Shown: piece by piece, positions 1 through 54,785 of the stretch
Layout: each line of letters opens with the position of its first letter
Position numbering within the stretch: position 1 is the stretch's first letter
Source of the DNA: Chlorella sorokiniana
Taxonomy: Eukaryota > Chlorophyta > Trebouxiophyceae > Chlorellales > Chlorellaceae
Direction: 5' to 3'
Length of the DNA stretch: 64,000 nucleotides
Assembly: GCA_025917655.1 (NCBI GenBank)
Contig: CP084619.1
Span: forward strand, 496,001 to 560,000
Made by a program: the position numbers and the translations under genes
Notes under the pieces: generated by a model
Seen by the model: the letters and a program-made list of their open reading frames with translations, nothing else
What the model was told of the DNA's origin: nothing
Databases searched by the model: none

Positions 1-394
1 CGTGGGAAGATGAAAGCCAGAACAGGGTAAAAAACGTGGTGCGGGGCACGGCAGCCCAGGCGGCGACAGCGGCGAGGCGGAGAGGGAATCATCTGTTCTG
101 GAAGGGGGCCAGGCAGCAAGCAAGGGTACCTGCTGGCACGGCGGCAGCTCTCATCAAGGGGGTGGGGCTCAAAAATCTGCCTAGTATGCCGCGGGAAAAC
201 CACCGGAAGGGGGCCGGAAAACGGGGAGTATGTTGGGTTTGCAGGTGCGGGACGGTACAGCAGGGGAGTGGTGATGAGTAAAGTTGGGGACGCCAAGGGT
301 GTTCAGCTGCTAACGGGTGATGGGCACGAGAGGAGTGGTCTCACTTTCACACGTGGAAGGGGTGCGGGGGCCAGACGCAGCCTCCCGCGCCGCC
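1..394. other. 3' flank of hexose transporter, no gene seen
   Basis: This stretch lies downstream of the minus-strand hexose transporter stop. Short open frames occur on both strands, as expected for GC-rich DNA, but none shows a family motif or convincing splice sites. No TGTAA signal (TTACA on the plus strand) was found here for the transporter, so its 3' end is not placed. Confidence 0.5.
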
Positions 395-1735
395 CTACTG
401 GGCAGCCTCCAGCTTGGAGTCCAGGGAGGCGGCACTCTTGGAGTTCTCGTTCTCAAGGAACTGCGGCAGGTGGTGAAGTGGCATGGAAGAGCGGTGAGCA
501 GGCCAGATGTAGGAGCAGGGCCCTGGCTGGCTAGCCTGCTGGCTTGCAGACGCTGCTGGCCCACTGGCCCAGCCAGCAGCTCGGGGCAGCTGCTGTGGAG
601 CGGCGGCGAGCGGCGGCTGGGTGGGCCCACCTCGTCGGCGTGCTCCCGCATGATGCGGCGCCAGAACCAGTGGCGGGCGAAGAGGGCGGGCACAGACTCC
701 ACGGGCACGCCCTTGGTCTCGGGCAGGAAAAAGAACACGGCCAGGGTCATGAGGATCACAAAGGCCTGCGTTCGGGAGGGAAAGGCAAGTAGAGGAAGGC
801 GTGGTAAGTTAAAAGAGGCTCAGGGGGGGAGGGGGGCAGGGGCCGCGACAGACGGGGCTGCTGGCTGGGAAACGCCAGGTGGCAGGGCGCGCGCGGCTCA
901 CCCCGAAGAAGAAGAAGGTGCCGAACTCCATCGCGCAAAGCATCGACAAAAAGCACTGTCCTATAATGAAGGAGAAGAGGAAGTTGACCGACACGGCGGC
1001 GCTCATGCCGGCGGGGCGCGTCTCCAGGGTCTGGATCTCAGAAGGCACCAGCCAGCCCAGGGGGCCCCAGGACCAGGCGAAGGCGGCGACGTACACGCTG
1101 CAGGCAGGGCGGAAAGGGGGTGGGGGGCAGCGCGAGGTCAGCCTCGGCTCCGGGCGAACGGCATGGGAGGGCGCGGGGCATGCCGAGCGCTGCGCCCTGC
1201 GGGCGCATGGCCACTCAAAGGAGCAGGCGCGGCAGTGTGCATCGCTCAACCCAGCCCACCCCAACCCACCAGATGACCACCAGCAGGCCGATGGCGACGT
1301 TGGTGGGCAGATCGGCGGCGGTGTGGCTCTTGAACTCGACGGCCAAGATGCCGCCCGTGGCAAACAGGCCCACAATCATCTGCACGCCGCCCTCAATGAA
1401 CAGCGGGCGGCGGCCAAAGCGGTCAACTGCAGCACAGGGAGGGGTGCGGGGAAGGGAGGGGGAGGTTTCAGCACTGGCGGCCAGGCCCTGCAACAGAACC
1501 CCTCCCTGCTGCCCGGCGCTCCTGGCGCATCAGCATCAGTACCCTGCCCCCCGCCCCCAACAAAAATAAAACTCACACACACACACACTCAAAACCACAA
1601 CACCGGGTGCCTCACCCGAGAAGATGGAGACAAAGGTGGCCACCACGTTGACGGCGCCGATGATGACGGTGTTGAGCAGGGCGGCGGACTGGCCGGAGCC
1701 CAGCGAGGAGAAGATGACGGGGACCTGCGGGGGTG

Positions 1736-1784
<49 letters not shown>

Positions 1785-3915
1785 GGGAAGTGCGTCCCGC
1801 CTGATGGGGAACAGCTCGTTGATGGAGCAGCACGAGTGAGTGCACCCGCCGTGCCACGGCTCAGCAGCCGGACGCTGGGACGCAAGCCCCGCGGCGGCGC
1901 GCGAGCTCACGTAGAACATGATTGCGTTGATGCCGGTCAGCTGCTGCAGCATGGCGATGGCGGCGGTGACGATGAGCATGGGCGAGTACTTGCGGGTGGC
2001 CATGGCGCGCCACGACTGCAGCATGCTGATCTTGTTGGCCTGCTCCGCAGCTGCAGCAGGGGGAGGGGGAGGAGGTTGGGGGCGGTGGCAGGGGTTAATG
2101 TGGCAAAGGAGCGGCAGCAGGGGGAGGGAGGAGGGGAGAGCAGGAGGTAAGGCGGGGGATAAGGCAAAGGGGTAGGCGTGTGCTGATGAGGAGAGGAGGG
2201 ACGAGGAGGGTTGGCCGTGCTTGCACACGGCAGCTGGGCATCCTTCCGCAGCCACTGGGCATCCTCCCGCAGCCAGCACCCACCGGCGACGATGTCGGCC
2301 ATCTCCACCTCCACGTCCTGGGTGCCCCGCAGGCGCTGCAGCACGGCCTTGGCCTCGGCGGTGCGCCCGCGCTCAGCCAGCGAGTTGGGGGTCTCGGGCA
2401 GCACCAGGCCGCCGACGAAGAGCAGCACAGCAGGCACGCCGGCCAGGCCCAGCGACAGGCGCCAGCCCCAGGTCAGGTCCTGAGCGCCGTAGTTGATCAG
2501 CTGGGCAGCCAGGATGCCTGGAGGGAGAGGGGGTGGGTGGGGGTGGGGGCAGGGGTGAGTATGTGTGTATGTGTATGGCGGAGGGGCCGCCAGGGATGGA
2601 GGGGATGGGGAGGGAGTGCGGGCAGGGCTTGCAGGCAAGCACAAGCAGGCAGCTGCCCAGCTGCCCCTCGCTGATTGGCAGTGGCTGCGGAGCAGCAGGG
2701 GCGCCCAGAGCAGCGCAGCCAGCAGGCTCACCGATGGTCACCGCCAGCTGGAAGAGCATGTTGAGGCCGCCGCGGTGCTTGTGGGGCGCTGCCTCAGAGA
2801 GGTACAGGGGACGCTGCGCACAGAAGCAGGGGGAGGCGGGGTGCGTGTCAGCATTTCAGGGCCAGCGTGCTATCCCAGTGCCCTGCACCTGCCGCGCCCC
2901 CTGCTGTCCTGTCGGCAACAAGCAGGTGCAGCGCCTGCACTCTCCCGACCCCTGCCCCCGCACCTGGTGTTGGCGGCGCCAATGCCGAAGCCCAGTAGGA
3001 TGCGGCCAACGACCAGCATGGCGAGGTTGACGGCGCCGGCGTTGAGGCCGGTGCCGGCCATGAAGCAGATGGACGCAAAGACGAGGGAGACCTTGCGGCC
3101 GTAGGCGCGGGTCATGCTGGCGGCGAAGAAGCTCATGAAGAGGCCTGCGGGGCGGTGAGAGGAAAGGGGGCAGGGACTGATGAGGTCCGGGGCGGGGGGG
3201 GCTTGGGAGGCGGCATGATGCTGGAGGGGGCGGTGCCATCATCCAGCCAGCCGGCACGGCGGGAGCTGGTTGCACCGTGTGGCAAGCCCCCGACGCGGCC
3301 GCTCACCAGCCAGGAAGAGGGAGCTGGTGAACAGGGTGAGCAACTGGTTGTCGTAGGAGCAGTAGGGGAGGCCTCGGGCTCCGGGTTCTGCGTCTGCTCG
3401 TAAACGTCAGGGAAAAACTTTTGCAGGAAGGGGGCATCGAGGTGACGCCGCCAGTCACGCCAATGTCGTAACCGAACAGCAGCCCTGAATCAAGAGGGGG
3501 GTCGGGAGAGGGCAGGCATTGTCAGGGCGTAGTGACTGGGCAGATACCGAGCTGCATGCTGGCAACCAATGCGAGATTTGGAGGCTGCCCCAGAGTAACT
3601 CTCAACCGTTGCCTGCAGCAACTTACCGCCACTTGCAGCCTGCGTAGAGGGTGGGGGGGGTGGGAGATGGAGGGAAAAGCGGAGGTGAGAGGAGGTATTA
3701 GGAGAGCGCCCTCTGTCGGCGCCTGTCGCATGGCGCCGCCCGGCTGTCGGGCGCGCCATGCAGGCGCCCAGGGCTGTCCGGTCGCGGGCCACGGCGCAGC
3801 GATTGGACTCCGCAACACTCACCATGAGAGTGACCATGAGGAGGAAGGCATTGAATTTGCCGGTGTACAGGTCAGCCCTGCTGGAGGACTGGGAGATGAC
3901 GGCTCCGCCTGCCAT
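395..3915 (-). CDS. HUP: Hexose/H+ symporter, Chlorella HUP type
   Basis: Plasma-membrane sugar/proton symporter of the major facilitator superfamily. Twelve exons (minus strand): 3823-3915, 3627-3639, 3307-3484, 2964-3144, 2732-2813, 2284-2517, 1911-2050, 1616-1724, 1270-1426, 902-1097, 631-765, 395-460. The joined protein follows Chlorella HUP1 throughout: MAGG start, [14 protein letters not shown] in helix 1, [12 protein letters not shown] in helix 7, [10 protein letters not shown] in the central loop, [13 protein letters not shown] in helix 10, and the C-terminal [10 protein letters not shown] and ARHWFW motifs. Exon 2 is a 13-nt microexon whose phase fits exactly. Exon 3 carries two one-base slips (near 3437 and 3368) in the extracellular loop; adding a base at each restores the HUP sequence, so I read them as sequence errors. 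HUP1 of Chlorella is glucose-inducible, but no regulatory site is visible here. HUP1, 2 or 3 cannot be told apart. Confidence 0.93.
1739..1783. repeat. (TG)n microsatellite in transporter intron
   Basis: A perfect TG/GT run of about 44 bases lies in the intron between exons 1616-1724 and 1911-2050 of the hexose transporter. On the sense (minus) strand it is a CA run just upstream of the 3' splice site. Confidence 0.95.
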
Positions 3916-5277
3916 GGTTTCGGATTTTGTGGATTCGGAAGGCCTGCAGTAGTTCAACACATTAAAGAAATGAGCGCGCAACAGGGGGTAATGAGCGTGG
4001 AGCTTGGGTGTCGGTGATGGGAGGGCATGCGGCTTGCAGGCTGCTTTCGGGGTAGCCCAAGACCCAAATACCTGAGAGTAGGCAAGCGGGGAGCCGACCA
4101 GGGAGAAACAGTGGGAAATGGTGAAGATGCGGCGCTCGGAGGTGCCTCTTGTACGAGGGCTGCAAGGCCGCCAGATGGCGCGCAGGGAGCTGACCTCCCT
4201 GCCGAGCTTAGCAATTGTGGTTTAGACCATCAGCTCCCGGGGCTCTTGCCTGCTTGCATGGGCCTACTGGAGTTCTTCGAGCGCTTAAGCCTGGCATATC
4301 AGGCCTTGCAAGCCAGCACAAACTCCGAAACTCGTTGGCTTGCACCTGCGGCTGCCCTGAAGCAGCTTCCGGCTCCTGCCTGCTATCCATTACTTATCCA
4401 GAATTACGAGAATGGGAGGCATTGGGGCACTGCTTTGCCGCCACTCACAAAGGGCCTGCAGTCAAGGGCACAACTTTTACTTGAACAACATTATTTGACG
4501 GGCAGGCCAAGCCTTCTCGACGACTGCAGCAGATCTTGCACATGATGGTGACCCGTGCGCACCTTGTGTGCTTGTCAGCCCAGGACGAGCCCCCCAACAG
4601 TCTGCCTTGCACCAGTAATGATCCACTGGCTGCCACAGCACCGCCGTTCTGATCCACGCCTGTTTGGCCCTTGTCCTTCTCTTCAGAGCAGCTGTGCAGC
4701 ATGAGCACTGGTCTGACCCAGCAACAATGTTTGAGACGGGGCTCTTACAGCGGAGGTCTGTACACAAATTCGAACCCCCAGCAAGACGTGACAAGCGAGG
4801 CAAAGAAATGCAGCGAGGTGGGTTGGTGCCCACACGATGCACTTACGAGAAGAATCCTTAGAAATCCAATGTGTGGAATCAGCAGGGCAGGCTAGATATC
4901 GCCGAAGTATGGAGGGAAGGTGCAAGTTCAACGCAGCCGGCAGCGAGGACAGGGAGACGAGGGGGCTGCACGGCCATGCGACCGGATGAGGCGGGCCAGT
5001 GTGGGGCGCCCGCCGCCCCGGTGCGCAGTGATGCTTTGTTCATTGAGGGGGTGAGTCAGCACAGAGAGGTAGCGAGCGAGTTGTTGGGATTCGTCACGGG
5101 CCCCAGGCCAGGGGGCCGCGCCGTCAGAGTGCGGTCCAACGGCGCGGCCGCGGGGGGAGGGGGTCACGAGCCCGCGGACCGCTCAGTCCTACACCGGGGG
5201 CGCGGGATGGGGAGACGGCGCGGCCGCGGCAAACACGGCCGCGCCGCCCCTCGTCACCGCCGCCCAGCCGGCGCAGC
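3916..5277. other. Intergenic region, no gene supported
   Basis: About 1.36 kb between the start of the hexose transporter and the end of the YYGGH-repeat gene, both on the minus strand. It must hold the transporter's promoter and 5' UTR and the YYGGH gene's 3' UTR. The part from about 4020 to 4860 is visibly less GC-rich than its surroundings. Open frames such as 4027-4545 have no recognisable motif and no supporting splice pattern. No TATA element or repeat stands out. Confidence 0.5.
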
Positions 5278-6402
5278 TCAGTGGCCGCCATAGTAGGAGC
5301 TGGTCATCAGGCGGCGGTGGCTGGTGGCGCCGCCATAGTAGCCGCCGTCGGTGGACAGGCGGCGGGAGTGGCCACCATAGTAGCCGGAGTGGGCAGTCTG
5401 GAGCTGGCGGTTGAAGAAGTGCGGGACGGGGATGTCAGGCGGCGCCGCTCTGCGCGGCGGGCATGAACGACTCGCCAAACAGCGACCGCACGTGCAGGGG
5501 GCATCCGAGTGCAGGCGCCGGTGGCTGCCTGCGGGAGGCGGCAGCGTGGAGGGCGAGGATTAGGGAAACCGGGGGCCAGCTGGGGCGCGGCTCCCTCACA
5601 GTGCACCGCCGCAAAATATCCGCGACAGCGGCACGGCAGCAAGCGGCCAGGGACGCCCCCTCCGTGCCTTTGCCCCCCAGCTCACCGTGATAGTACGAGC
5701 TGGACAATCGGCGGTGGCCGCCATAGTAGGAGCTGGTCTGCAGCAAGGGGGCAGGGGATGGATGGCAAAAAATGATGATGATGGCAAAAATTCAAGTAAG
5801 CAGCTGCTCGGGCACTCCGATGGGTGCTGCTGGCCACCCTTTCCTCAGCCATTGTCGCTGGCACAGTGTTCCTCGCCCCTTCCCTCCCTGCCACACATGG
5901 GCCGTTCAGAGGCGCCACACACTGTGCGCTGAAGGAAGTGATGTCCGGCCGTTGGGATCAGCCGCCGCTGCTGGCGCTCACCAGCAGCTCGCGGCCGTTA
6001 GCCTGGCTAAGCCGCCGGTGTCCACCATAGTAATGTCCGCTGGTGGCAGAGGCGCAGAGGACGAGCGCCAGGAGGGCGAGGACGGTCGCCTGCGGAAGGG
6101 CACGCAAAATTTTGAAGGCTACCCAAGGTCTGTGTCGGCAAGAAGGGTAAAGGGTGGCTGCCGGAAGCCGAAAAGCGGGGGTCGGGGGCGGCGAACAGCC
6201 CATGGACATGCCCGCCATGCGAGGTGCAGGGCAGGAAGCGGCAGAGAAGCGCGCACTGGCTTGGCTGGGCACTGCCCACCAACTCGTTCACAAACAGAGG
6301 CAGGAATATGGAGATGGGCAACGCGTCAGCGCTCTGGGGGCGGCTTTCTCAGCCCGTCGCCGATTCTGCATCAGCTCTCACCTGCAGCCTGAGTGCCGCC
6401 AT
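5278..6402 (-). CDS. Secreted YYGGH-repeat protein, unknown function
   Basis: Small gene not recognised from any family. Exons: 6382-6402 (MAALRLQ, 21 nt), 5982-6089, 5686-5737 and a last exon from about 5450 to the stop at 5278-5280. Exons 1 and 2 join in phase into a signal peptide: positively charged start, hydrophobic core ATVLALLALVLCASA, likely cleavage near residues 22-25. The mature part is about 100 residues and is built on a Tyr/Gly/His/Arg repeat: HYYGGHRRLS, SYYGGHRRLS, SSYYH, GYYGGHSRRLS, GYYGGATSHRRLM and a C-terminal SSYYGGH. The exact start of the last exon is unsure (an AG near 5452 would fit the phase). The repeat frame, signal peptide and splice phases agree across exons. 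Role unknown: an extracellular or cell-wall protein is plausible (Tyr-rich repeats can be cross-linked, His can bind metal), but this is inference. Confidence 0.7.
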
Positions 6403-7169
6403 TGTTCTCTTATGGACTATGAAGGGCTGTATGCGACCGCCTTTGTTGGATGAGCGCGTTGGGTGCGCTCGAACCAGCGGGTGTCTGCCGTGGACCTAAG
6501 AAGAGCTTGCACCCGAGGGCCTCAACCCGGTCTGTCTGTGCTTGTTATAAGTTGGGTAGTTGAGCTAGGGGGTGTTAGTAGGGTGCCCGTGGCTAAAGTG
6601 GCATGGGGACGACGGTGGAAGCCTGCGAAGCTGTGCCCCTGGGTCGCACTGACAGTGAAGCTAGATGTGTGATATGCCCCCTGCGTCCGTTCTTTAATGT
6701 CACAAACAGTATTAAATCGCTAGGGTGCAGCGATGGGATGTTTGCGGCTGGGGGTCTCACGTCTGCCAGTGCGTCAGCAGCGGCCGCCACTGTGCCAGAC
6801 AGCGTGCATTGCTGGCGTGCCGTCAAGAGCCCCCGCTGCCCAGACATGTCAACATCACACACCATCGCAGACGCCACAGGAAGCGTTCTAAGACTGCAAG
6901 GTTGAGCACTCTGGCTCAGGCGTCGTGCATGCGTAGTCACCGGCCACGCAGGAGAGGCTCCAGCGGCTGGACTGACAGCAATCATGGAGACGGTCATTCA
7001 CAACGCAGTCATGTTTGAGGTTGTGTCAGGTGCAGAGCTGACGACCACCACAGTATAGACCGTATTTCGTGTCAAAGTTGGATGCATTTAAGTCTGAGAG
7101 CGGTTGTTGCGGTTGGGGAAGGCGTAACATGTTCAGCGCACTGCACAGGGAGCACCAGGAGCATGTAGG
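6403..7169. other. Intergenic region upstream of YYGGH gene
   Basis: About 770 bp containing the upstream region of the YYGGH-repeat gene and the 3' flank of the coiled-coil gene. Nothing coding is supported. A GGTTCGA-type stretch near 6468-6476 (minus strand) recalls a tRNA T-arm, but no tRNA fold can be built around it. Confidence 0.45.
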
Positions 7170-8545
7170 CTACCAGTCAAGCTGCTCATCGCTGTCCAGC
7201 GCAGGTGCAGCTCCAGCCTGCTGTGCACGACGTCCATCAGAGGGCGCACTCCACCGCTGCAACGGCGGGGCTGCTGGGTCTGGCGCTGGTATGGGTACCG
7301 CCCCCTGAAGTCCACCCCGCCCGGCAGCTGCCATGCCGCTCTCACCCGCGCCGTCGCTGCTTATGGTGGCACCCCGCTGTACACGCGTCACGCCCAGCTG
7401 CTCCTCCCAGCTGGCTGAGGCCTGCTGTGGCGGCAGGCTGCTGGGGTGTGCCACGGTTGGGGCCTCCACAGAACCCTCCTGCCGACCCCAGCTCACGATC
7501 GCCCCCGCTCCTGCTGCGCCCGTCGCAGCGAGTTCACAGTCTCTGCAAAGCGAGAGATCTTGCGCTGCATTCCACCACGTGCAAAGGCACCCAGGGGTGG
7601 GCTGCCTGCAGGCTCCTCCATCTGCTGCCAGCCCCGCTCCCGCTGCAGCGGCGGTACCTGCAGCTGCTGCTGCGGCTGCGGAGACTGCTCCAGCGGCTGT
7701 AGCTGCTCACCCAGCCACCATGGCCGTACTGTCTGCTGCGTCTGCTGCTGCACAGGAGCTTGTCGAGGAGCGGGGTCGGCGTTTAACCAGCGGCCGCTGC
7801 GTCGCCGTCGCTCCGCTATGCGTCGCTCCATGCCGGCCTGCACTCAGTCCGACGACAACGGCAATCAATGAACCAGGGAATGCACACAGCAGTCAGCTGG
7901 CGGCAGGGTCCATGTGCATGAGCAACCCTGTCTGCTGATGACGGGCTGGGCATGGCAGCATACGCGCGCGGCAAGCACAGGCACGGACCAAGCCACCCAC
8001 CCGCACTTCTGCCAGCTGCTGTTCCTGCGCCCGCTGAGCCTGCTCTGCCTGCTCGTTGGCAGCGGCAAACTGCTGCTGCTGCTGCTGTCGTGACTGCTGC
8101 CCTCCGGGCAGGGCTGGGGCAGTTGCTCCCGCGTCGTTTGGCGCAATCGCTGCAGGTGTCTCGCGCCCTCGCCACGGCTGAGGCGGCTGCAGGCCAGGCG
8201 GGGCCGGGGCACACCCTGCTCTTGCCGCTGCATTTCTTCAAACTCCACCTGTTCCTCCCAATTTTCCCACTCCTGTCGTTGTTTGTCCAACCGGCTGCGA
8301 TATGCGGCCTGCAACACGTGGCAGAGCGGTGGGGAGAGCGGTCTGCCAACTACAGCCCAGGAAGGGTGGCTTTGACGCGGTGTGAGAGCAGCTGGATGCA
8401 TTGCCAGGACGTAGTAAGATCTCAATGGCCTACCTCTTGCCGCTGCCGCAACGCATTCCGCAGTTGCGGATTGTATGCGCGGCAAGGATGGGAAGAGCGG
8501 GGCCCCGAACGGCGACGAAGGACATGCTGCTATTCTTCATGGCAG
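7170..8545 (-). CDS. Gln/Glu-rich coiled-coil protein, 5' end unresolved
   Basis: Not recognised as a family. Exons on the minus strand: about 8434-8540, 8215-8308, 8001-8149, 7497-7837 and 7170-7421, with stop TAG at 7170-7172. The first three junctions are in phase. The protein is highly charged and helix-prone: RSRLDKQRQEWENWEEQVEF, then a poly-Gln run followed by FAAANEQAEQAQRAQEQQL, then MERRIAERRRRSGRW and a Gln/Pro-rich segment, ending in DSDEQLDW. The junction after 7497 is off by one base, next to a run of five G, matching the one-base losses elsewhere in the window. No initiating ATG in the right frame was found, so one or more 5' exons are missing. It could be a cytoskeletal or ciliary-type coiled-coil protein; that is only a guess from composition. 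Confidence 0.5.
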
Positions 8546-9081
8546 AGGAATGCTTGAACCCGCGAGGATTGGCGTCTCGGCATGCAAGTTGCCTGGCTGT
8601 ACTTCTCTGAGAAAGAGTTGCAGCGCCTCAGAGGCATTGGCTCAATTGCATGTTTTAAAAGCAGCTCGAATTGCATACTTTGGCGCACCGCTGCGCTGCA
8701 GGACGCTATGGCAAGTCTTTTTGTCTCCCCTGTCGGCAGCGCACTGCAGGTCAGCCGTGGAATCACGCCAGCATGTCTACAGCCTAGGGCTACTCGGACT
8801 AGGCCCCGGCCTGCAGCGAACCGTGTGCAAGGTGAGTTCACGACCCTCTGCCCACCCGTGACGCCAGAGCTGACGTGAGCTTGCTGGAGTGGCTGTGTTG
8901 CCAGCTTTTAGTGGCGTTCATGGCCGGCCGAGGCGGCTGCGACCCTGCTGCACAGAAGAGCCCCTGCCGCCGCCACTGCTGAACCTTGACAGCTTTAGTG
9001 CTGACGGCTTGCGCTTTGCCGCCCTGCTGACGGCATGCGCTTTGCCGCCCACTTACGCTCCTCTGCGAGCCTCACGTGTGC
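8546..9081. other. Divergent upstream region, coiled-coil gene / SAT
   Basis: Roughly 530 bp between the 5' side of the coiled-coil gene (minus) and the serine acetyltransferase start (plus). The missing first exon of the coiled-coil gene and any upstream transit-peptide exon of SAT would lie here. An open plus frame from 8889 (MAVLPAFSGVHGRPRR) could encode a targeting peptide, but I could not join it in phase with confidence. Confidence 0.4.
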
Positions 9082-11974
9082 ATGTTTCGACTCGTATACG
9101 CAGCAGCCGGGCCCGGCTCGCAGAACGGTGTGGCGCCGCCGCCGCCGCCGCCTTCCGACGACGGCGTGGTGTGGGAGACGAGCAGCATCCCAGAGTACAT
9201 GCAGGACCCCGGGGCTGAAAACGACGAGTTCTGCGACAGCTGGGAGGCCTCCCTGCGCAGCGGCGCCGCGCAGCGTGCGGCGGCCGCCGACGGCGGCCCT
9301 GCTGCCCGCATCTGGCAAGCGATCCGGTGCGCCGCCTGCCCAGCCCAACCTGGCCCCCCCCGCCGCCGCACACAGCCACACTGCTGCCCCTCAGCTGAAC
9401 AAGCCCCGACGTCTCCGGGTGCCCGCCGACGCGCTGCTGGCCCCCTGCCGCCGTGGTGCAGGCGCGAGGCGCAGGCCGATGCCGCCTCGGAGCCCCTGCT
9501 CTCCTCCTTCCTCTACGCCTCCATCCTCTCGCACGACTCCTTCCAGCGCGCCCTCGCCTTTGTCCTCTCCAACCGCCTCTCCGACACCACCCTCCTCTCC
9601 ACCGAGCTGTTTGAGCTCTTCTACTCCATCCTGAAGGCCAAGCCCGGCATCACAGAGGCGGCGCTCGCCGACCTGGCCGCCGTTCGCGGCGGGTGCGTCG
9701 CCCGCGGCGCCGGCAGCGCGACGGGCGGGGAGGGCTGCTCAAGGGATGCAAGGGGCTGCCCAGGGGCGGTGCGCATGCGCGGGGCGCGCTGCTTGTGGCC
9801 GCCGCTCAGAACGCCGCCCTCCTTCCCCCTCTCTGCCTGGCATGCCCGGCGCTCGACCAGCCCCAACCAGAAATCCTTAACCCTACTTTCCCCCTCCCCT
9901 ACTCACACACACACACACACACCGGGCCTCCTTGCAGGACCCTGCGTGCCTCTCATACAGCCAGGCCCTGCTGCACTTCAAGGGCTATCACGCAATCCAG
10001 GTGCGCGTGTGCCCGGTCGGGTCGGGGTCGGGGCCGGTCGGTGCTGCGCTTTGTAGCATAGCAGGGGGACCTGGCGGCATCCTGGTGTGTGCACGTGGCC
10101 ACACACGCACACGCACATACTCAGCGCCCCCCGTCGTCCCCCTTCAACCCCCCTTCCCTCCCGCCCGCAGTCCCACCGCATAGCACACGAGCTGTGGGGG
10201 CAGGGCCGCCGCGTGATGGCCGCCGCGCTGCAATCGCGCATGAGCGAGGTGTTTGCGGTGGACATCCACCCCGCCGCTCGCTTCGGCCGGGGCATCCTGC
10301 TGGATCACGGCACCGGGGTGGTCATCGGGGAGACGGCGGTGGTGGGTGCGTGGCGGCGCTGCTTGCGCTGCGCGGCAGCCGGCTGGCTGGGCCCGCGCTG
10401 CGCGTCCCGCGCGTGCACCTGCTGCTGCAACGGCTGCGCCCACTGCCGTTTGTGGCCTGCTGCATTCACCCCCTTGCACACTGCATGCGTGTGTGTGCAG
10501 GGTCGAATGTTTCCATCCTGCAGAACGTCACGCTGGGAGGTGCGCCCAGCTGATGGGGGGTCCTGGGGAGTGGGGGAGAGAAGAGAACTACGGGGGAGTC
10601 TGCTGCTGGGGTTGGCAGGGCAGCATGCGGTGCGGCGGCAGCATGCCAGACAGCATGGCTTGTGAAGGCCTGTGCATTGAAGCGCCGCAAACCAGGAAGA
10701 CGCGTGCTGTCTGTGACAAGACAGCTGGGCTGCAGCAAGTCCCGGAGCTGTGTCGCCACGCCGCCCCGTGCCTCCTAAGCTCCTGACCCCCATGCTGACC
10801 CCTGCCTGCCTGGCCCTCCCCTCCCACCTTCGCCCCTCCCATCAGGCACTGGAAAGGTGCACGGCGATCGCCATCCCAAGATCAGCGACAATGTGCTGAT
10901 AGGCGCCTCGGCCTCCATCCTGGGCAACATCCGCGTGGGCAAGGGCGCGCAGGTGGGTGCATGCAGGGCGCGTTAGGGGGAGGGGGCTGGCGCTGGCTCG
11001 GCAATGCAGCAGCCAGGACGGGGCCAGGTGCTGCGGAAGCAGCCGGTCGGCGCTGGCAGCTAGCTGGGGCAAGCGGTCGTGCTACGGCTTGGTAGGCGGT
11101 GGCCGCGTCTGACGCCTGCCGAGCCGTGGTGCTGCCCCGCCCCCTGCCGCAGGTGGCGGCGGGGTCCCTGGTGCTCAAGCCGGTGCCGCGCGCACCTTGG
11201 TGGCGGGGTCGCCAGCCAAGGAGATTGGGACCATCAAGGGTGCGCCCTCGCCCCGCGTGGGGCAGCGCTGCAGCGGCCGCGCTGCGCGCGCGTGCTTTGC
11301 CGCTGCTGGGAGCGCTGCTATGCCTGATCCTGGGGCAACCATGCTGCCCGCCGTCGTCCTGTTGGCTGCCGCGGGGCTCCCGTTGCCCCTCCATGAAATA
11401 ACAATCAAAGCAGTTTCAATCAAAAAAGTAAACCTAGACTGCTCTCCCTGCCCAACACACACGCATGCAAACGCCCCCACGGCTCGCTCCGCTGCCCTGG
11501 CTCCGCAGGCAACCCCGCCCTCAAGATGGACCACTGCTGCGTCGACAACCGGGAGCTGCTCAAGGCTCACCTGGATCGAGACCCCTTTGCCGCCCCTCCC
11601 CCGGCGGCGGCGCCGATGTGCAACAGCAGCAGCAGCAGCAGCAGCAACAGCAGGATGTTGGGCCAGGCGCGCAGCAGCAGGCGGCGCAGGCGGTGGGCGC
11701 TGCTGCGGCACCGGACGCCAGCGGCACAGACGCGACGAGCGCTCAGCAGGAGCAGGGGGAGCAGCAGGCGAGCCAGCAGCTAGACGCCGCGCAGCCGCCG
11801 CAGCCGCCCTCGCCGGAGGCCCAGGCCGGCGCGGCGCCCCCAGCTGCAGCCAGCCAGCAGCGGCGGGGGCGAGGAGGAGCAGCGGGGGAGCGGGTGGATG
11901 CCGTGACGAGCGACCTTGTGGCGCAGCAGAAGTGGCCGCCCAAGAAGAGCACGCCGCCAGAATACTTCATTTGA
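9082..11974 (+). CDS. SAT: Serine O-acetyltransferase
   Basis: Transfers acetyl from acetyl-CoA to serine, the first step of cysteine synthesis (EC 2.3.1.30). Eight exons: 9082-9326, 9462-9692, 9938-10000, 10171-10345, 10501-10539, 10846-10952, 11153-11239, 11509-11974. The order matches plant SAT: helical domain EPLLSSFLYASILSHDSF, then DPACLSYSQALLHFKGYHA, then the left-handed beta-helix. The catalytic Asp and His (DIHPAARFG, LLDHGTG), VVIGETAVVGSNVSILQNV and GDRHPKI are all present. The C-terminal region continues through a Gln/Ala/Pro-rich linker of about 120 residues and ends in PPEYFI. That end recalls the plant SAT tail (YVI) whose last Ile docks into O-acetylserine thiol-lyase. One-base slips near 9690, 11193 and 11607 are read as sequence errors. 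The ATG at 9082 is the first in frame; a plastid transit peptide is not obvious and an upstream exon is possible. Confidence 0.94.
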
Positions 11975-46236: not shown

Positions 46237-46241
46237 GTAAC
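46237..46241 (+). terminator. TGTAA poly(A) signal of psaE
   Basis: TGTAA on the sense strand, 142 nt after the psaE stop codon, a usual distance for green-algal 3' UTRs. Confidence 0.6.
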
Positions 46242-46247
46242 CAGCCT

Positions 46248-46252
46248 TACAG
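46248..46252 (-). terminator. TGTAA poly(A) signal of MetAP copy A
   Basis: TTACA on the plus strand is TGTAA on the sense strand of MetAP copy A, about 390 nt after its stop. The matching place in copy B (near 50605-50612) reads TTACC, so the signal is not conserved there. Confidence 0.5.
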
Positions 46253-46645
46253 AATGCTGGCGGAGCTGCAAGCCTCCACAACCGCAGAGAGCTGCAATAG
46301 AGCGCTGTCCTGCAGCTAGACAAGACACCGCCCTGGCACGCAGCCCGCCTGCCGCAAGACCACACGGATTGCCCCGGAGGCAACAACACCATGCTGCCGC
46401 CTCCCATGCTTTGGTTAGCAGCGGCTGCGGCAGTGAGCCGTCTGCAGTGCAATGCAGCGACATTCAGCCCTGTCCCAAGCGAGGGTGGATGTGCCGGCAT
46501 GCTGCTGCCGATATCTCTCTTGCAAGCACATTGATTGCTTGTCACAACACAGCACTCAAGGCAGCTTTTGCGCAGCCAACCGTCGCACGCAGCGAGCAAA
46601 CAGCCTGAGCCACGTTTTGCCAGACTTGCTGCCCCCGCGCCGCTG

Positions 46646-49600
46646 CTACTGCCCGTTCTGCGGCTGCTGATGCCCGTTCTGCGGCTGCTGGTGCCCGTTC
46701 TCTTGCTGCTGCGCGCCGTTCCCTCCGTCTCCGCCTCCGCCTCCCACCACAGCGGCGGCGAGGAGGGCAGCCGCGCGGTGAGCACCTCGCATCCGTCGGG
46801 GTGATGACCAGGGTGTGCTCAAACTGGGCCGAGCGACGGCCGTCCTCGGTGACCGAGGTCCAGCCGTCGGGCCAGGTCTTCTCGCGGTGGGTGCCCTGGT
46901 TAATCATGGGCTCTGCGGGTGGGTGTGGGTGTGGGTGGTGGTGGGGGGGGGGTTGGGGGGGGTATCACAGGCAGCTCAGGCAGCCACCGAAGCGTTCACG
47001 ATAAAGCACCAAGGCAGGCAACCGCAACAGCAGCCCGCCCACCTATAGTGAACACCTCCCCCACTTTCATGGTGCCCTTGGCCTTGTTCTTTGCGTAGTG
47101 CGGCACGTTGGGGGCGCAGTGGAAGAGGTCGCCAATGCCGTGGCCGCAGTACGCACGCACCACGCTCAGGCTGGGGTGGAGGAGGGATGCATGCGCATGC
47201 GTGAGAGGCGGAGCTTCAGCTGAACTGTGCGCAAGCTAACATCAGCAGTCACCCGTGCAAAGGGAGGTCACGGAATCCCCCAGCCTTCTGTGAAACCCGG
47301 CGGGTGCTGCAGCGAAGGCCCATGCTTGCGCAACTGCTCGTCTGCCACAGGCTGAAAGCCTGAGCCGCGCGGCGGCAGCCGGCACACACCACCCTCACAC
47401 CACCAGTTTCAAAGGCATGCCAGCGCACCCGTGCGCCTTGGCCAGCTTGGAGATGACTTCCCGATCTCGCGGTACGGCACGCCCGGCTTGCAGATGGCGA
47501 TAGCCTTGTGTAGGCACTGCGAGGGGAGGGCAGCAGCGCAGCCCGCTCATCAACCGCAGGGCCCTGCCAGCAAGATAGAACGCTGCGCATGGCGGCAAGC
47601 ATGGGCATGGAGGCACGCAGGCTCAGCGCAGCACAGCATGGCTAGCGCAGCACAGAGCAGCGCAGCGGTGCCGCACGTCGTGAGTGACCCGGAGCAGCTT
47701 CTTGGACTCCTCATCCACCTCCCCCACCACAAACGTCTCGTTGAGGTCGCCTGCAGTGCACGAAGTACAACCCAGGCGATGCAGGTCGCAAAGAACAGCA
47801 GGAGAGGTTGAAGCACGGGCAAGCGGGTCGGCGCCATTGCAGCGGCGGCCACACGCGGCCTTGGCTCTGCGCGCTACCCAGCCGGCATGGCCCACACAGC
47901 AGCCAGCGCGGCTTGTACAGGTAGTTGTACCGCTGTGTCCCGCCCACCATGGTACCCCTTGTAGTACACCGACACGTCGACGTTGACGATGTCGCCCTCC
48001 TCGAGCGGGCGGCGGTCGGGGATGCCGTGGCAGATGACCTCGTTGATGGAGGTGCAGACGGACCTGAAGCATTGCAGGCGGTGCGGCCGCACGCAAGTCA
48101 GTTGCTGACCACTCAGCCGCCTTCCGATGCTTGGGACGCACTGTTCCGGTGCTGGGATGGGGTGCAAGGTGAAGCACCGCAGCGGGATCAAGGGACAGAT
48201 GCTCGAGGGAGCCACGGCTGGGCTGCCTCCCACGACGGGCACGCCAGCGCCTGCACCGCAGCTGGATCAAGACAAGCCGCGGCACCCCCAGCCTCACTTG
48301 GGGAAGGTGTAGTAGTTATAGGGGGAGGGTAGGCGCCCGCAGCCAGCGTCGCCTCATGAACCTACAGCAGCGGCGGGGGGCAGCCGTGGCGGCGGAGGCC
48401 TGCGGCGTGGGCACGTGCTGGCATGCCCGCAGGGTAGCGGGGGAGGCGTGGAGGGCCCGCTGCACGATTGACGCAGCCGTGCCTTGAAAGCAGCCCCCCA
48501 TCTGTTACCCACCCAGCGGGGCAGAACGGACAGGGCCGCTGCCCTTGGGCCCACGGCCACCGTGCCAGGGTAGCTGACAACCATGCTGGCAGGCTTGCTG
48601 CCCACTCAGGAGAAAAAAAAAAAAAAAAACACCTCTCCTGCAGCACAGGGTGAGGGGAGGAGTTGCAACCGGCAGCAGGGGCTCACGATGCGGTCGATCT
48701 CGTCCGTGGTGATGCCCGGCCGCACCGCCGCATGCGCCGCGTCCAGCACCTGGCGCCCGATGCGGCACGCCTCGCGGATGCCGGCTATGTCGCGCTCGCT
48801 GCGGATCTTGACTGCGCGTGAGGAGGGCCACGTGTGTATGGGTGGTGAGGACAAAGATAGTCGAGTCAGAGGGAGGGTTGGTGGTGGTGGTGGTGGAAGG
48901 GCGGGGGGTTGGGGGTAGGGTGGGAGGAGGCAGGTGCCTCGGAGTGGGAGCAGCGTGTGCATGGGCCGGGTGCTGAGCTGCAGATGCAGGCAGTGAGGTT
49001 GCAGATGCAGGCAGTTACGCCGTGGTGTGGGTGCGGACAGCGGCGCAGCTGCCTCCACCGAAGTGAGGGCCGTGCTGGTGCCCAGCAAGCACGGCAGCGC
49101 GAGGGCAACATTGACCCTGGTTGCCCCCGCACACCCGCAGTTTGCTGCCGGCTCGCAACCTCTATGGCGGGGTAGCCACTCGCGTAGTAGTCTGGCTTGG
49201 GGATGTGGTCAGGAATCTGCGGGGGACAAAGGGGGGATGAGAAAGGTCAGATGGCCCGCCAGCTGGCCGGGTGCGAGCGTCGGTACCGCCCCGCCTGCTG
49301 CCTCAGCGCTGCGACAAAATAGCGGCGAGCCTAGGACTTTGACGCTAGGTGGCATCAGGGGTCGTGTGGGGTCTTCCCCTCCCGAGTGAGTGTCCAACTG
49401 GCTCCAGCGTCCAGGCCGTTCATCGCCGCTCGCTGCCGCTTTGCCCCCCTCCCCCGCCCCGGCCTCCCGCTGAGATCACTCACATGGCGCATGGGTCCGA
49501 TGCGCGCCGGCCGCAGGTCCCCCGTCCACTTGAACTCCGGCATGTTCAAGGAGCGCCCCTGGCCTCGCCGCGTGCAGTAGTGCCAGCCCTCACTCGTGCT

Positions 49601-49873
49601 CGGCTTGTGCAGCTTCTTGTGCTCTGCCCAGGAAGCCTTGAAGCAATCTTGGGAACAGAAGGCTGCCAGGTCGCGCTCCAGGTTCAACTCCAGGCTGTGG
49701 AAAAGGGAATCGGTAGAGTGCAGGAAGTGGGTGAAGGGCTGGGCTGAACGACCTCCTTTTGGGTGGCTGGCGGCGGCGGCGGCTCACCAACGTGGGCACT
49801 GCAGCTTAGCGGGCTGCCGACACGTTGCGCAGGCGAGCTGCTCCACGTCCTCCTGTTTCTGTTCCTGTACCAT
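46646..49873 (-). CDS. MAP1: Methionine aminopeptidase 1 with zinc finger, copy A
   Basis: Removes the initiator Met from new proteins (EC 3.4.11.18), cytosolic/ribosome-linked. Ten exons: 49788-49873, 49484-49694, 49135-49216, 48687-48811, 48299-48361, 47948-48063, 47677-47750, 47429-47516, 47043-47170, 46646-46912. The N-terminal zinc finger of eukaryotic MetAP1 is complete across the first splice: [17 protein letters not shown], then [19 protein letters not shown]. The catalytic domain has [20 protein letters not shown], both Asp ligands ([26 protein letters not shown]), the His ([12 protein letters not shown]) and both Glu ligands ([24 protein letters not shown]), so all five metal ligands are present. 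The C-terminus is Gln/Asn-rich (HQQPQNG units). One-base slips at the YPSPYNYY segment, after PYREIG and at the last Pro/Gly segment also occur in copy B. The stop at 46646-46648 depends on the frame chosen. Confidence 0.94.
48611..48629. repeat. Poly(A) tract in MetAP copy A intron
   Basis: A run of about 17 A lies in the intron between exons 48299-48361 and 48687-48811. The matching intron of copy B has only AAGAAAGAA there, so the tract grew, or was lost, after the duplication. Confidence 0.9.
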
Positions 49874-51031
49874 GCTGCTGCGGTGACGTCCGACTACTTC
49901 AGTTGGCGAATTACATGCAGCCCTGGGGAGCAAGCGACTTGCTTCCAACGGTGCAGTCCACTCTGCGGTGTCTGGCAAGCTGAACAATGCACCCAACGTG
50001 TCGAAAGAGCCCCTCCTGCCTCGCCAGGCTGTCATGCTGTGCGTGGCATGGTTTCTGGGCGCCTCCTCCTGCATCGACCCTGCATATAGACTGGTCCTGG
50101 ATTCTTGTGTGGTCGATCCGTAACCTTTATAAGTCTGCTGCAGGGAGGGGCAGAGGCAGGGGCAGGCCCGAGGCAGAGGCTCGACTGCCCCCACGCCAAA
50201 TGACGGCACTCCCTTCCCCACGAGCAAACGGCGCTGGCGTGTGTATCTTTGGACTCTGTGCCGGACCGCCCCTACCGTGAGCAGCAGCAGATAACTGCTA
50301 TATGTTACAGCACAGCTGCAACTGCTGGTATCTGCAGCAGCGAGCGGCATCATGCAGCTCCGCAGTACAGTAGTACGCAGCATCGGCGGTTCGAAGGCGG
50401 CTGCCGCTACTGGCCCGCTGTTCTGTGCGGTCTTATTCCGATCTGCTGCCTAGACAGCCAACCTCTCCTTTCTTTCGTCGTCATGAAAGCCTGTCTGTCA
50501 TGATCTCCAATGCAACCGTGGCATTGTACCGATTCCGTCATGCGCCCGCCACAATGTAACATGGGCAGGGCACCGACACTTGGCCGGACTGCCCCTGTGG
50601 TAGCCATCCTTACCAAGCCGGCGGAGGTGCAAGCCTCCTCGACCGCAATGCGCTGCAATAGAGCGCTGTCCTGCAGCTAGACAAGACATCGCCCTGGCAC
50701 GCAGCCCGCCTGCTGCAAGACCACACGGATTGCCCCAAAGGCAACAAAACCATGCTGCCGCCTCCCATGCTTCGGTCAGCAGCGGCTGCGGCTGTCTGAA
50801 ATGCATGCAGCGGCATTGAGCGGGTACTCTATGGGCAGCCACTTCAGCCCTGTGCCAAGCGAGCAAGGAACATGTGGGTGTGCTCGCCGGCAGCTGCCCA
50901 GATCTCTCTTGCAAGCACATTGATTGCTTGTCACAATACAGCACTCAAGGCAGCTTCCGCGCAGCCAACTGTCGCATGCAGCGAGCAAACAGCCTGAGCC
51001 ACGTTTTGCCAGACTGGCTGCCGCCCCGCTG
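49874..51031. other. Intergenic region between the two MetAP copies
   Basis: Holds the upstream region of copy A (to about 50121, shared with copy B), about 480 bp of unique sequence, and the 3' flank of copy B (from about 50600, shared with copy A). The unique part has no supported gene. A plus-strand TGTAA occurs at 50555-50559, but no plus-strand gene is known to use it. Confidence 0.5.
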
Positions 51032-54000
51032 CTACTGCCCGTTCTGCGGCTGCTGATGCCCGTTCTCTTGCTGCTCCTGTGCAGGCCCCTCCGTCTCCGC
51101 CTCCGCCTCCCACCACAACGGCGGCGAGGAGGGCAGCCGCGCGGTGAGCACCTCGCACCCGTCGGGGTGATGACCAGGGTGTGCTCAAACTGGGCCGAGC
51201 GACGGCCGTCCTCGGTGACCGAGGTCCAGCCATCGGGCCAGATCTTCTCGCGGTGGGTGCCCTGGTTGATCATGGGCTCTGCGGGTGTGTGTGGGTGGTG
51301 GTGTGTGTGTGTGGGGGGGGGGGGGGGGGGGGGGACAAGGGTTCAAAGGTAAGCAGCAGGAAGTGGGTGGGGAGGGGCGGGGGTGACGGGGTGGGTGTCG
51401 TCGGCTGGCCAGGGCAGCGGCTGGCCGGGCTGGTGTGTTGATATGGCGGATTTGGTGGCTTGCATCAAGCGGGCAGCGTGTTGACCAGCAGCTCAGCAGG
51501 GCACAGCAACCGTGCAGAAGGGGCCGCTGACTGCCACCCCTGCATTCACGACGAAGCACCAAGGCAGCCCACCCCGGCAGCAGCCCCCCACCTATGGTGA
51601 ACACCTCCCCCACTTTCATGGTGCCCTTGGCCTTGTTCTTTGCGTAGTGCAACACGTCGGGGGCGCAGTGGAAGAGGTCGCCGATGCCGTGGCCGCAGTA
51701 CGCACGCACCACGCTCAGGCTGGGGTGGAGGAGGGATGCATGTGCATGAGAGGCGGAGCTTCAGCTGCCCTGTGTGCGAGCTAACATCAGCAGTCACCCG
51801 TGCAAAGGGAGGTTACAACATCCCCCGTGCCCCAGCCCTGCTGCGGAACACAGCGGTTGTTGCCGCAAAGGCCCATGCTTGCGCAACTGGTCCTCTGCCG
51901 CAGGCTCAAAGCCTGAGCTGCGCGGCGGCAGCCAGCACACACCACTCTCACACCACCAGTTGCAAAGGCATGCCAGCGCACCCGTGCGCCTTGGCCAGCT
52001 TGGAGATGACTTCCCGATCTCGCGGTACGGCACGCCCGGCTTGCAGATGGCGATGGCGTTGTGAAGGCACTGCGAGGGGAGGGCAGCAGCGCAGCCCGCT
52101 CATCAATCGCACAGCCCTGCCAGCAAGATAGAACGCTGCGCATGGCGGCAAGCATGGGCATGGAGGCACGCAGGCTCAGCGCAGGACAGCAAGCGCAGCG
52201 CAGCGCAGCGCCAGCGGTGCCGCACGTCGTGAGTGACCCGAAGCAGCTTCTTGGACTCCTCGTCCACTTCCCCCACCACAAACGTCTCGTTGAGGTCGCC
52301 TGCAGCGCACGCAGTACAACCCAGGCAATACAGGTTGCAAAGCGCAGCAGGAGAGCTGCAGCACGGGCAAAGGGGTGGCGCCATTGCAGCGGCGGCCACA
52401 CGTGGCCTTGGCTGCGCGCTCCGCAGCTGGCACGGCCTGCACAGCAGCCAGCGCGGTTTGTACAGGTAGCTGCACCGCTGTGTCCCGCCCACCATGGTAC
52501 CCCTTGTAGTACACCGACACGTCGACGTTGACGATGTCGCCCTCCTCGAGCGGGCGGCGGTCGGGGATACCGTGGCAGATGACCTCGTTGATGGAGATGC
52601 AGCAGGACCTGCAGCATTGCGGGCGGTGCAGCCGCACGCAAGTCGGTTGCTGACCACTCAGCCGCCTACCGATGCTTGGGACGCGCTGTTCCGGTGCTGG
52701 GATGGCGTGCAAGGTGAAGCACCGCAACGGGATCAAGGGACAAGGGACAGATGCTCGAGGGAGCCACGGCTTGGCGCATTCCAGGACGGGCACGCCAGCG
52801 CCTGCACTGCCGCTGGATCAAGACAAACCGTGGCACCCCCAGCCTCACTTGGGAAAGGTGTAGTAATTATAGGGGAGGGGTAGGCGCCCGCAGCCAGCGT
52901 CGCCTCATGAACCTACACAGCGGCGGGGGGGCAGCCGTGGCAGCGGAGGCCTGCGGCGTGGGCACGTGCTGGCATGCCCGCGGGCAGCGGGGGAGGCGTG
53001 GAGGGCCCGCCGCACGATTGGCGTAGCCGTGCCGTGAAAGCAGCCCACCCCCAGCTGTCACCCACCCAGCGGGGCAGATCGGACAGGGCCGCTGCCATTG
53101 GGCCCATCGCCACCATGCCAGGTAGCTGACAATGATGCTGGCAGGCTGGCTGTTCATTCAAGAAAGAACCTCTCCTGCAGCACAGGGTGAGGGGAGGAGT
53201 TGCAACCGGCAGCAGGGGCTCACAATGCGGTCGATCTCGTCCGTGGTGATGCCCGGCCGCACCGCCGCGTGCGCCGCGTCCAGCACCTGGCGCCCGATGA
53301 GGCACGCCTCGCGGATGCCGGCTATGTCGCGCTCGCTGTGGATCTTGGCTGCGCGGGAGGGGGGCCCAGGGTGTGTGGGTGGTGAGGATGTTCGGGTGAG
53401 AGGGAGGGGTGGTGGTGGTGGTGGTGGAAGGGCGGTGGTTGGGGGTGGGGTGGGAGGAGGCAGATGCGTCTGAGTGGGAGCAGCGTGTGCATGGGCCGGG
53501 TGCCGAGCTGCAGATGCAGGCAGCGATGTTGCAGATGCAGGCAGTGATGCCGTGGTGTGGGTGCGGACAGCGGCGCAGCTCCCTCCACCGAAGAGCGGCC
53601 GCACTGGAACCCAGCGTGGCAGCGCCGTTGCAACACCAACCCTGACCGTCCTCTGCACACCCGTAATCTGCTGCCGGCTCGCAATCTCTATGGCGGGGTA
53701 GCCAATCGAGTAGTAGTCTGGCTTGGGGATGTGGTCAGGAATCTGCGGGGGAACGGGGGCCCGTGTGCGCGCGCGCGCGGGGCAATGAGAAAGGTCAGAG
53801 GACCCGCCAGCTGGGCGGGTGCGAGCTACAAGACCACCCGGCCTGCTGCCTGGGTGCTGCGGCAGCGACAGCTGCGAGCCTGGGCCTTTGACGATAGGTG
53901 GCAGCAGGGATCGTGCGAGGTGTTCTCACCTGCTCCAGCCTTTCATCACCGCTCGCTGCCGCTAGCCCCCACGGCCACGCCCCAACCCCGGCCTCCCGCT

Positions 54001-54401
54001 GAGATCACTCACATGGCGCATGGGTCCGATGCGCGCCGGCCGCAGGTCCCCGTCCACTTGAACTCCGGTATGTTCAAGGAGCGCCCCTGGCCACGCCGCG
54101 TGCAGTAGTGCCAGCCCTCACTCGTGCTCGGCTTGTGCAGCTTCTTGTGCTCTGCCCAGGAAGCCTTGAAGCAATCTTGGGAACAGAAGGCTGCCAGGTC
54201 GCGCTCCAGGTTCAACTCTAGGCTGCGGAAAAGGGATTCGGTAATGTGGAGGAAGTGGAGGAAGGGCTGGGCTGAACGACCTCCTTTTGGGTGGCTGGCG
54301 GCAGCGGCGGCTTACCAACGTGGGCACTGCAGCTTGGCAGGCTGCCGACACGTCGCGCAGGCGAGCTGCTCCACGCCCTCCTGTTTCTGTTCCTGCACCA
54401 T
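51032..54401 (-). CDS. MAP1: Methionine aminopeptidase 1 with zinc finger, copy B
   Basis: Second copy of the gene at 46646-49873, same strand and same ten-exon layout. First exon 54316-54401 begins [18 protein letters not shown] (Asp to Gly against copy A). The last coding exon runs from 51278 down to the stop near 51032. The zinc-finger cysteines and the five metal-ligand segments of the catalytic domain are kept. Differences seen: KIHSERD for [16 protein letters not shown] for [18 protein letters not shown] for [18 protein letters not shown] for HREKTWPDG, and one fewer HQQPQNG unit in the C-terminal tail. The same frame slips as in copy A occur, at equal or neighbouring bases. Its 5' end is only 384 bp from the phosphorylase start, so its promoter context differs from that of copy A. 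Confidence 0.94.
51295..51335. repeat. TG/G-run in MetAP copy B intron
   Basis: GT repeats followed by about 21 G in a row on the plus strand. On the sense strand this is a C-run and CA-rich tract just before the 3' splice site of the last exon (51278). Copy A has a shorter G-rich tract at 46920-46962. Confidence 0.9.
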
Positions 54402-54785
54402 GCTGCTGCGGTGACGTATGACTGCTTCTAGTTGGCGAATGCCATGCAGCCCTGGGGAGCAACGACTTGCTTCCAACGGTGCAGTCCACTCTGCGGTGTC
54501 TGGCAAGCTGAACAATGCACCCAACGTGTCGAAGGAGCCCCTCCTGCCTCGCCAGGCTGTCATGCTGTGCGTGGCATGGTTTCTGGGCGCCTCCTCCTGC
54601 ATCGACCCTGCATATAGGCTGGTCCTGGCTTCTTGTGTGGTCGATCCATAGTCTAAACAACTCACACCCTATATTTTTCTGCCCTCGGTGACGCCTGAAG
54701 TGCCCTAGCCGTGAATCAAAGGCGTCTCGATCGCTGATCTGTGACCGAGTCGTGGTTACCAGGATCTTGATCAAAGTTCGGAGGC
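54402..54785. promoter_or_regulatory. Divergent upstream region, MetAP B / phosphorylase
   Basis: A 384-bp region between outward-facing start codons. The left 250 bp are part of duplicated unit B and therefore also lie upstream of copy A. The right 130 bp (from about 54652) are unique, with moderate GC. No defined element is recognised. Confidence 0.45.

Follow-up and report, generated by a model that had tools for sequence, protein, structure and literature searches.

The locus examined here lies on contig CP084619.1 of Chlorella sorokiniana and would encode a small secreted-looking chain in which YYGGH-like cores alternate with RRL motifs. The question it raises is whether such a chain is a precursor that is cut between its repeats, a structural protein of the cell wall that stays whole, a source of metal-binding or antimicrobial peptides, or simply a young or decaying reading frame. 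Within the window, by which we mean the whole stretch of 64,000 nucleotides that was analysed, the gene runs from 6402 to 5278 on the minus strand and comprises four exons with a predicted product of 143 residues. A first-pass annotation made from the sequence alone had given the coordinates exactly and was silent on the strand. As far as sequence can tell, the candidate gene is real and well built, and its repeat is distinctive.

Gene model and repeat units

Exon 1 (6382..6402) holds the ATG, which stands in the context GAACAATGGCG, and encodes MAALRLQ, the predicted start of a signal peptide. Exon 2 (5982..6089) carries the remainder of the hydrophobic signal sequence (ATVLALLALVLCASA) together with the first repeat unit, and exon 3 (5686..5737), which is 52 nt long and ends in phase 1, encodes the second unit and the first half of the third. 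The end of the third unit, a 42-residue spacer, the last three units and the TGA stop at 5280-5278 are all found in exon 4 (5278..5528). The intervening introns of 292 nt (6090..6381, GTGAGA...CCGCAG), 244 nt (5738..5981, GTGAGC...CTGCAG) and 157 nt (5529..5685, GTGAGC...CCGCAG) all start with GTGAG and end with GCAG, and the joined exons amount to 432 bases with one stop, which is terminal. All of these features, and the repeat units described below, are on the minus strand.

We enumerated the splice parses from ATG to stop using GTRAG donors (4), YAG acceptors (34) and introns of at least 50 nt, which gave 114 splice chains with one open frame. A single chain retains all 11 motifs and corresponds to the four-exon model. 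Two others retain 10 of 11; these alternative parses, which we rejected, read through the donor at 5685 and use one at 5599 instead with the loss of the SHRRLH half of unit 3, and they bypass most of the stretch of exon 4 in which a frame conflict is described below. The best evidence that the exons belong together is that the splicing of intron 3, which lies inside unit 3, rebuilds that unit (YYHG/SHRRLH). Beyond the stop a possible polyadenylation signal, TGTAA, is located at 4745..4749 and is the sole TGTAA on the minus strand between 6450 and 3900, an interval in which that strand has neither AATAAA nor ATTAAA; TGTAA is used in this role in green algae.

Hydrophobicity at the N-terminus peaks in the 15-mer formed by residues 8-22 (mean Kyte-Doolittle value 2.49), which ends in ASA, an ending that presumably suits signal peptidase under the -3,-1 rule. 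The rest of the chain is basic and polar, with a pI of 10.15, a charge of +12.7 and a GRAVY of -0.95 for residues 22-143. The earlier description of a secreted-looking repeat protein, in which a hydrophobic start across exons 1 and 2 is followed by a repeat chain, is consistent with the predicted product.

The repeat chain contains six YY(G/H)G cores and five RRL motifs in strict alternation, with the final core running to the stop. Unit 1 (YYGGHRRLS, 6006..6032) is encoded in exon 2 and unit 2 (YYGGHRRLS, 5702..5728) in exon 3, unit 3 (YYHGSHRRLH, 5509..5695, a span that includes intron 3) crosses the junction of exons 3 and 4, and exon 4 holds unit 4 (YYGGHSRRLS, 5353..5382), unit 5 (YYGGATSHRRLM, 5305..5340) and unit 6 (YYGGH, 5281..5295), the last immediately 5' of the stop. 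In order, the five RRLx motifs read RRLS, RRLS, RRLH, RRLS and RRLM. The cores differ (YYHGS and YYGGATS, for example), GGH is kept in only four of the six units and forms no long runs, and the part conserved among the units is YY(G/H)G rather than the His. Spacing from core to core is uneven, with units 3 and 4 set 42 residues apart. The formula YYGGH(R/S)RRLS offered in the first-pass annotation fits unit 4 letter by letter and units 1 and 2 only if (R/S) is treated as optional, and it does not describe the others. The unit does occur in three exons, as had been observed, but the phases of these exons differ and the consistency claimed for them applies to the joined frame, which is continuous.

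None of 20,000 random orders of residues 22-143 contained six YY(G/H)G cores (maximum 2) or five RRL motifs (maximum 3). The pattern TACTATGGHGGHCAC, which was written from the repeat units themselves, has four matches in the window, all of them inside the gene, with 0.00 expected from 100 shuffles. The window was scanned in six frames for RRL-like motifs and for Y(Y/F/H/N)G(G/A) with H, A, Y or S as the next residue, and YYGG units turned up nowhere but in this gene; a single YFGAA was seen at 33525. In a relaxed self-comparison of the window the gene region matches only itself.

With 12 Tyr, 11 His, 17 Arg and no Lys among its 143 residues, and with the basic and polar character given above, the product can also be read as an uncut structural protein of the wall or matrix whose YY pairs would be oxidised and cross-linked and whose arginines would bind acidic polysaccharide. 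This was the main reading of the first-pass annotation and is the main rival of the one that we favour, namely a precursor cut at its RRLx motifs; we regard it as possible if somewhat doubtful. It leaves unexplained why RRL and a variable residue should stand between the cores and why a unit should lie at the stop, and there was no peroxidase or oxidase match in 40 Pfam frame queries from the window, though such an enzyme need not adjoin the gene. The nearest precedent that we found for a wall protein of this type, matched by description, is AC3362 of the diatom Amphora coffeaeformis, which is likewise a secreted and Tyr-rich algal wall protein (PMC4220933); it was found by a high content of both Tyr and Lys and has KG repeats, and the main text of that paper contains neither RRL nor RXL. 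If the protein does remain uncut, it would count as a new Tyr-rich constituent of the host's cell wall.

Apparent recent copying, a likely frame conflict and the search for relatives

The first-pass annotation had concluded that the repeat frame is under selection, and our comparison of the units does not bear this out. The overall pN/pS between units is 0.74 over the aligned codons, and the ungapped core gives 0.59 in frame as against 1.12 and 0.72 in the other two frames, which is a weak signal. Units 2 and 6 share 24 identical bases, including the codons just before them, an identity that appears to point to recent duplication, and all six units use TAT for their second Tyr whereas the training codons include no TAT and seven TAC. 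On the strength of the shared codon and the 24-base identity the units look recently copied, and so the likeness between them is on its own no proof of selection.

In exon 4 the coding signal is divided between frames. A codon model built on 390 codons from five Pfam-anchored stretches (GC3 0.90) backs the expected frame at the start of the exon and from about 5454 to the stop, and over a stretch at 5443..5502 on the minus strand it finds the signal mainly in another frame (f1). The 12-codon windows starting at 5514-5472 score higher in f1 than in the expected frame, with f0 slightly ahead in windows 5466 and 5460, and in the worst 20-codon window of the exon the off-frame lead is 20.8; among 290 overlapping 20-codon control windows an off frame is ahead in 19, with a lead of at most 14.2. 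Over 22 codons of the conflict stretch GC3 is 0.91 in f1 compared with 0.68 in the joined frame. These scores are to be read with the weaknesses of the model in mind, as unit 1, which is clearly real, scores lower in its own frame than in f1 (one 12-codon window, for instance, gives -8.7 and 1.7 respectively), exon 3 falls slightly below zero in most windows with its own frame still the best, and Tyr and His codons count against the repeat. A frame conflict in exon 4 is likely on this evidence, the likely cause being changes of length that offset each other, either in the assembled sequence or in the gene itself, and the Cys-rich reading CTCGRCLASRSC that the joined frame gives for 5443-5502 is doubtful.

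In order to place the protein we turned to family collections, contigs and the literature. There was no significant match in Pfam (the best was IBIN with E 0.11 and 12.8 bits, where the cut-off is 27, over residues 10-32), no match in NCBIfam and no significant match among PDB sequences (the best, with E 0.2, was an antibody chain), and the earlier statement that the protein has no known family holds for all three. Searches of contigs with the joined protein gave 19 stretches in viral and 273 in prokaryotic contigs that fitted a pattern, and the C-terminal part of exon 4 gave 34 in viral contigs; none of these stretches was confirmed. DNA patterns of the unit found 8 loci in prokaryotic contigs and 0 and 0 in viral contigs. 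Each of the eight has one unit (up to about 71 residues were read) and RR follows YYGGH in one, the pattern having admitted serine too; two of the loci represent a single bacterial protein that is present in two copies from Spirosoma. We took all eight for chance matches, of which about 30 would be expected for the DNA pattern on a rough estimate that supposes even base composition. As the collections searched for relatives were viral and prokaryotic they say little about algae; the gene is known here as one sequence, with no relative among the viral and prokaryotic contigs. Among the papers listed for the string YYGGH none was relevant as judged by title, and no green-algal repeat precursor of such a kind appeared among the titles and abstract openings retrieved.

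These observations bear on the possibility that the frame is young, orphan or decaying, with repeats that arose by recent local duplication in a gene that is unconserved or non-working. The uniform TAT codon, the 24 bases common to units 2 and 6, the weak pN/pS, the frame conflict in exon 4 and the lack of relatives in viral and prokaryotic contigs would all suit such an origin. Against it stand three GTGAG...GCAG introns whose removal restores both the frame and the unit, the hydrophobic start and the absence of any internal stop, and we consider it rather improbable.

Predicted cutting at the RRLx motifs

The reading that we favour, at a probability of roughly 0.4, is that of a repeat precursor which is cut at RRLx into six peptides. 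In this scheme a nuclear gene would give rise to a small and very basic secreted precursor that enters the secretory pathway by means of its signal peptide, and the five RRLx motifs would be cut by a site-1-protease/SBT-type subtilase or by a dibasic convertase. Cutting would free six short peptides with one YY(G/H)G core each, the last of which would end at the natural C-terminus; this final core needs no cut of its own since it ends at the stop. A cut after the x of RRLx would yield six pieces with TSSYYGGH as the final one, and a dibasic convertase that cuts after RR would yield the same number at the five sites. One extra RR, without L after it, occurs within CPPRRAAP in the part of exon 4 whose reading is doubtful. 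Once released, the Tyr/His-rich peptides may act outside the cell, either as Tyr-cross-linkable peptides of the wall or matrix or as other secreted peptides.

Plant peptide precursors in general have one or two cleavage sites before one mature peptide. The plant subtilases SBT6.1 and SBT3.5 cleave RxxL/RxLx sites, with CLEL6 cut by SBT6.1 after RRLR and PROSCOOP12 by SBT3.5 after RRLM (PMC13082318). All five RRLx motifs of the repeat protein conform to this RxLx subtilase motif, one of them being RRLM as in PROSCOOP12, and the first-pass suggestion that RRLS marks processing is strengthened by their fit to published RxLx/RXL sites. The precursors PROSCOOP12, CLEL6/GOLVEN1 and RALF23 are similar in that they are secreted proteins of the green lineage with sites of the RRLM/RRLR/RRIL type (PMC13082318), a likeness of site motif only in which we saw no sequence similarity. 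In contrast to the general layout given above, the five sites of the repeat protein divide six repeats. With regard to the enzymes, a SKI-1/S1P-like subtilase is present in Chlamydomonas (PMC6313938) and the ciliary ectosomes of this alga contain convertases and propeptides (PMC6919629).

Repeats that end in a comparable site are known from diatoms. Silaffin-1 has a signal peptide and basic repeats, a layout that the hydrophobic start and basic repeats of our protein may share; its repeats end in RRIL or RRNL, which are absent from the mature peptides, and RXL has been proposed as a general processing site (PMC4557024), the RXL wall proteins of diatoms including frustulins, cingulins and silacidins alongside silaffin-1. 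Silicanin-1 likewise has an N-terminal RXL domain with RRL at its end, and for silaffins the removal of such a domain has been ascribed to an as yet unknown protease (PMC5525289). Silaffin repeats rely on modified lysines, whereas the repeat protein is without Lys, has no link to silica and belongs to another lineage. By analogy with silaffins, which are both cut and found in the wall, the precursor and wall readings may be combined.

The layout of the gene resembles that of the fungal KEPs, among them the ustiloxin precursors and alpha-factor, which have been mined by an ER signal peptide and repeats between Kex2 sites (PMC7329392) and which likewise have a recurring protease-like site between their repeats. 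A DUF3328 gene lies near 22% of fungal KEPs, and Tyr is commoner in the repeats of KEPs that have a gene for cyclisation close by (65.6%, as opposed to 38.2%; PMC7329392). The repeat protein differs from them in being algal, in having L after RR at five of five motifs and in that no DUF3328 was found in the scanned frames. With no match to DUF3328 or tyrosinase in 40 frame queries, membership of the cyclised RiPP group (dikaritin/ustiloxin) is not supported. A further comparison is with the GATI-amide precursor of Chlamydomonas, another green-algal secreted precursor with paired basic sites (PMC6919629); its amidated product is derived from a 94-kDa protein, whereas none of the units of the repeat protein has Gly directly before the basic pair.

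A precursor could also give Gly/His-rich peptides that bind metal or are antimicrobial in the manner of shepherins, which are themselves released from a precursor. The repetition of GGH and the strong positive charge would agree with this. However, GGH is found in only four of six units and never in long runs, and it is YY(G/H)G that is conserved and not the His. GGH forms the usual N-terminal copper/nickel site only when Gly-Gly-His is the free N-terminus, and nothing in the sequence suggests a cut that would leave it so. Shepherin I is a Gly/His-rich antimicrobial peptide that has been examined with Zn(II) and Cu(II) (PMC10698721). We consider peptides of this sort an improbable product of the gene.

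Several points tell against the favoured precursor reading as well. The spacing is uneven and includes a 42-residue gap, the cores are not identical, pN/pS is weak, the viral and prokaryotic contigs yielded no relative, and owing to the frame conflict the sequence encoded by part of exon 4 is itself in doubt. The 40 frame queries matched no protease and none of DUF3328, tyrosinase and BURP, and the RRL motifs could be mere cationic ballast of a wall protein. It is unlikely, in our estimation, that the gene is the first known representative of a family of algal precursors from which a site-1-protease-like subtilase, acting at RRLx, frees several YYGG peptides; such a family would combine a repeat logic seen in fungal KEPs and diatom silaffins with the RxLx processing known from plant peptide hormones. 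Should the RRLx motifs of this one protein be cut, RxLx processing of repeat precursors would extend to unicellular green algae, which bears on the origin of plant peptide hormones and of algal wall peptides.

Surroundings of the gene

The Pfam scan of the window consisted of 40 frame queries from 39 different frames (one was given in two lengths), of which 29 lie in the first 24.3 kb, 1 at 55.5-56.5 kb and 10 between 26 and 62 kb. As the window has 423 stop-free stretches of at least 100 residues the scan took in a minority of them; G+C ranges from 63 to 76% in 2-kb steps. A multi-exon sugar transporter lies downstream of the repeat gene (313-2855, minus strand; Sugar_tr in five frames, one below cut-off) and the N-terminal domain of a serine acetyltransferase on its other flank (9076-10053, plus strand; E 2.2e-20). 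Past the latter frame there are weak methyltransferase matches, all below the curated cut-offs, and a match to Band_7_C, with a SAPS domain farther along the window. The 40 frame queries gave no match to DUF3328, tyrosinase, BURP, protease, peroxidase or oxidase families, and the only possible modifying enzyme that they place nearby is the methyltransferase-like gene with its matches below cut-off. Nothing in the scanned frames suggests a biosynthetic cluster around the repeat gene. The spliced genes and the SAPS domain indicate eukaryotic DNA, and on these grounds a bacterial or viral origin was rejected; G+C content, the style of the introns and the set of genes would agree with a green alga.

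A stretch at 7169-8349 is rich in CTG/CAG triplets and open in several frames, three minus-strand frames of which had no Pfam match. The window also contains a large direct duplication (51533-54647 against 46983-50119 at 88.9%, and 50600-51332 against 46237-46962 at 85.8%), and the two copies, at 46237-50119 and 50600-54647, are probably the result of tandem gene duplication. Each copy includes one tandem array of 21-base units (GCTGCTGATGCCCGTTCTGCG and a close variant of it), with 2.9 units at 46642-46721 and 2.3 units at 51028-51075.
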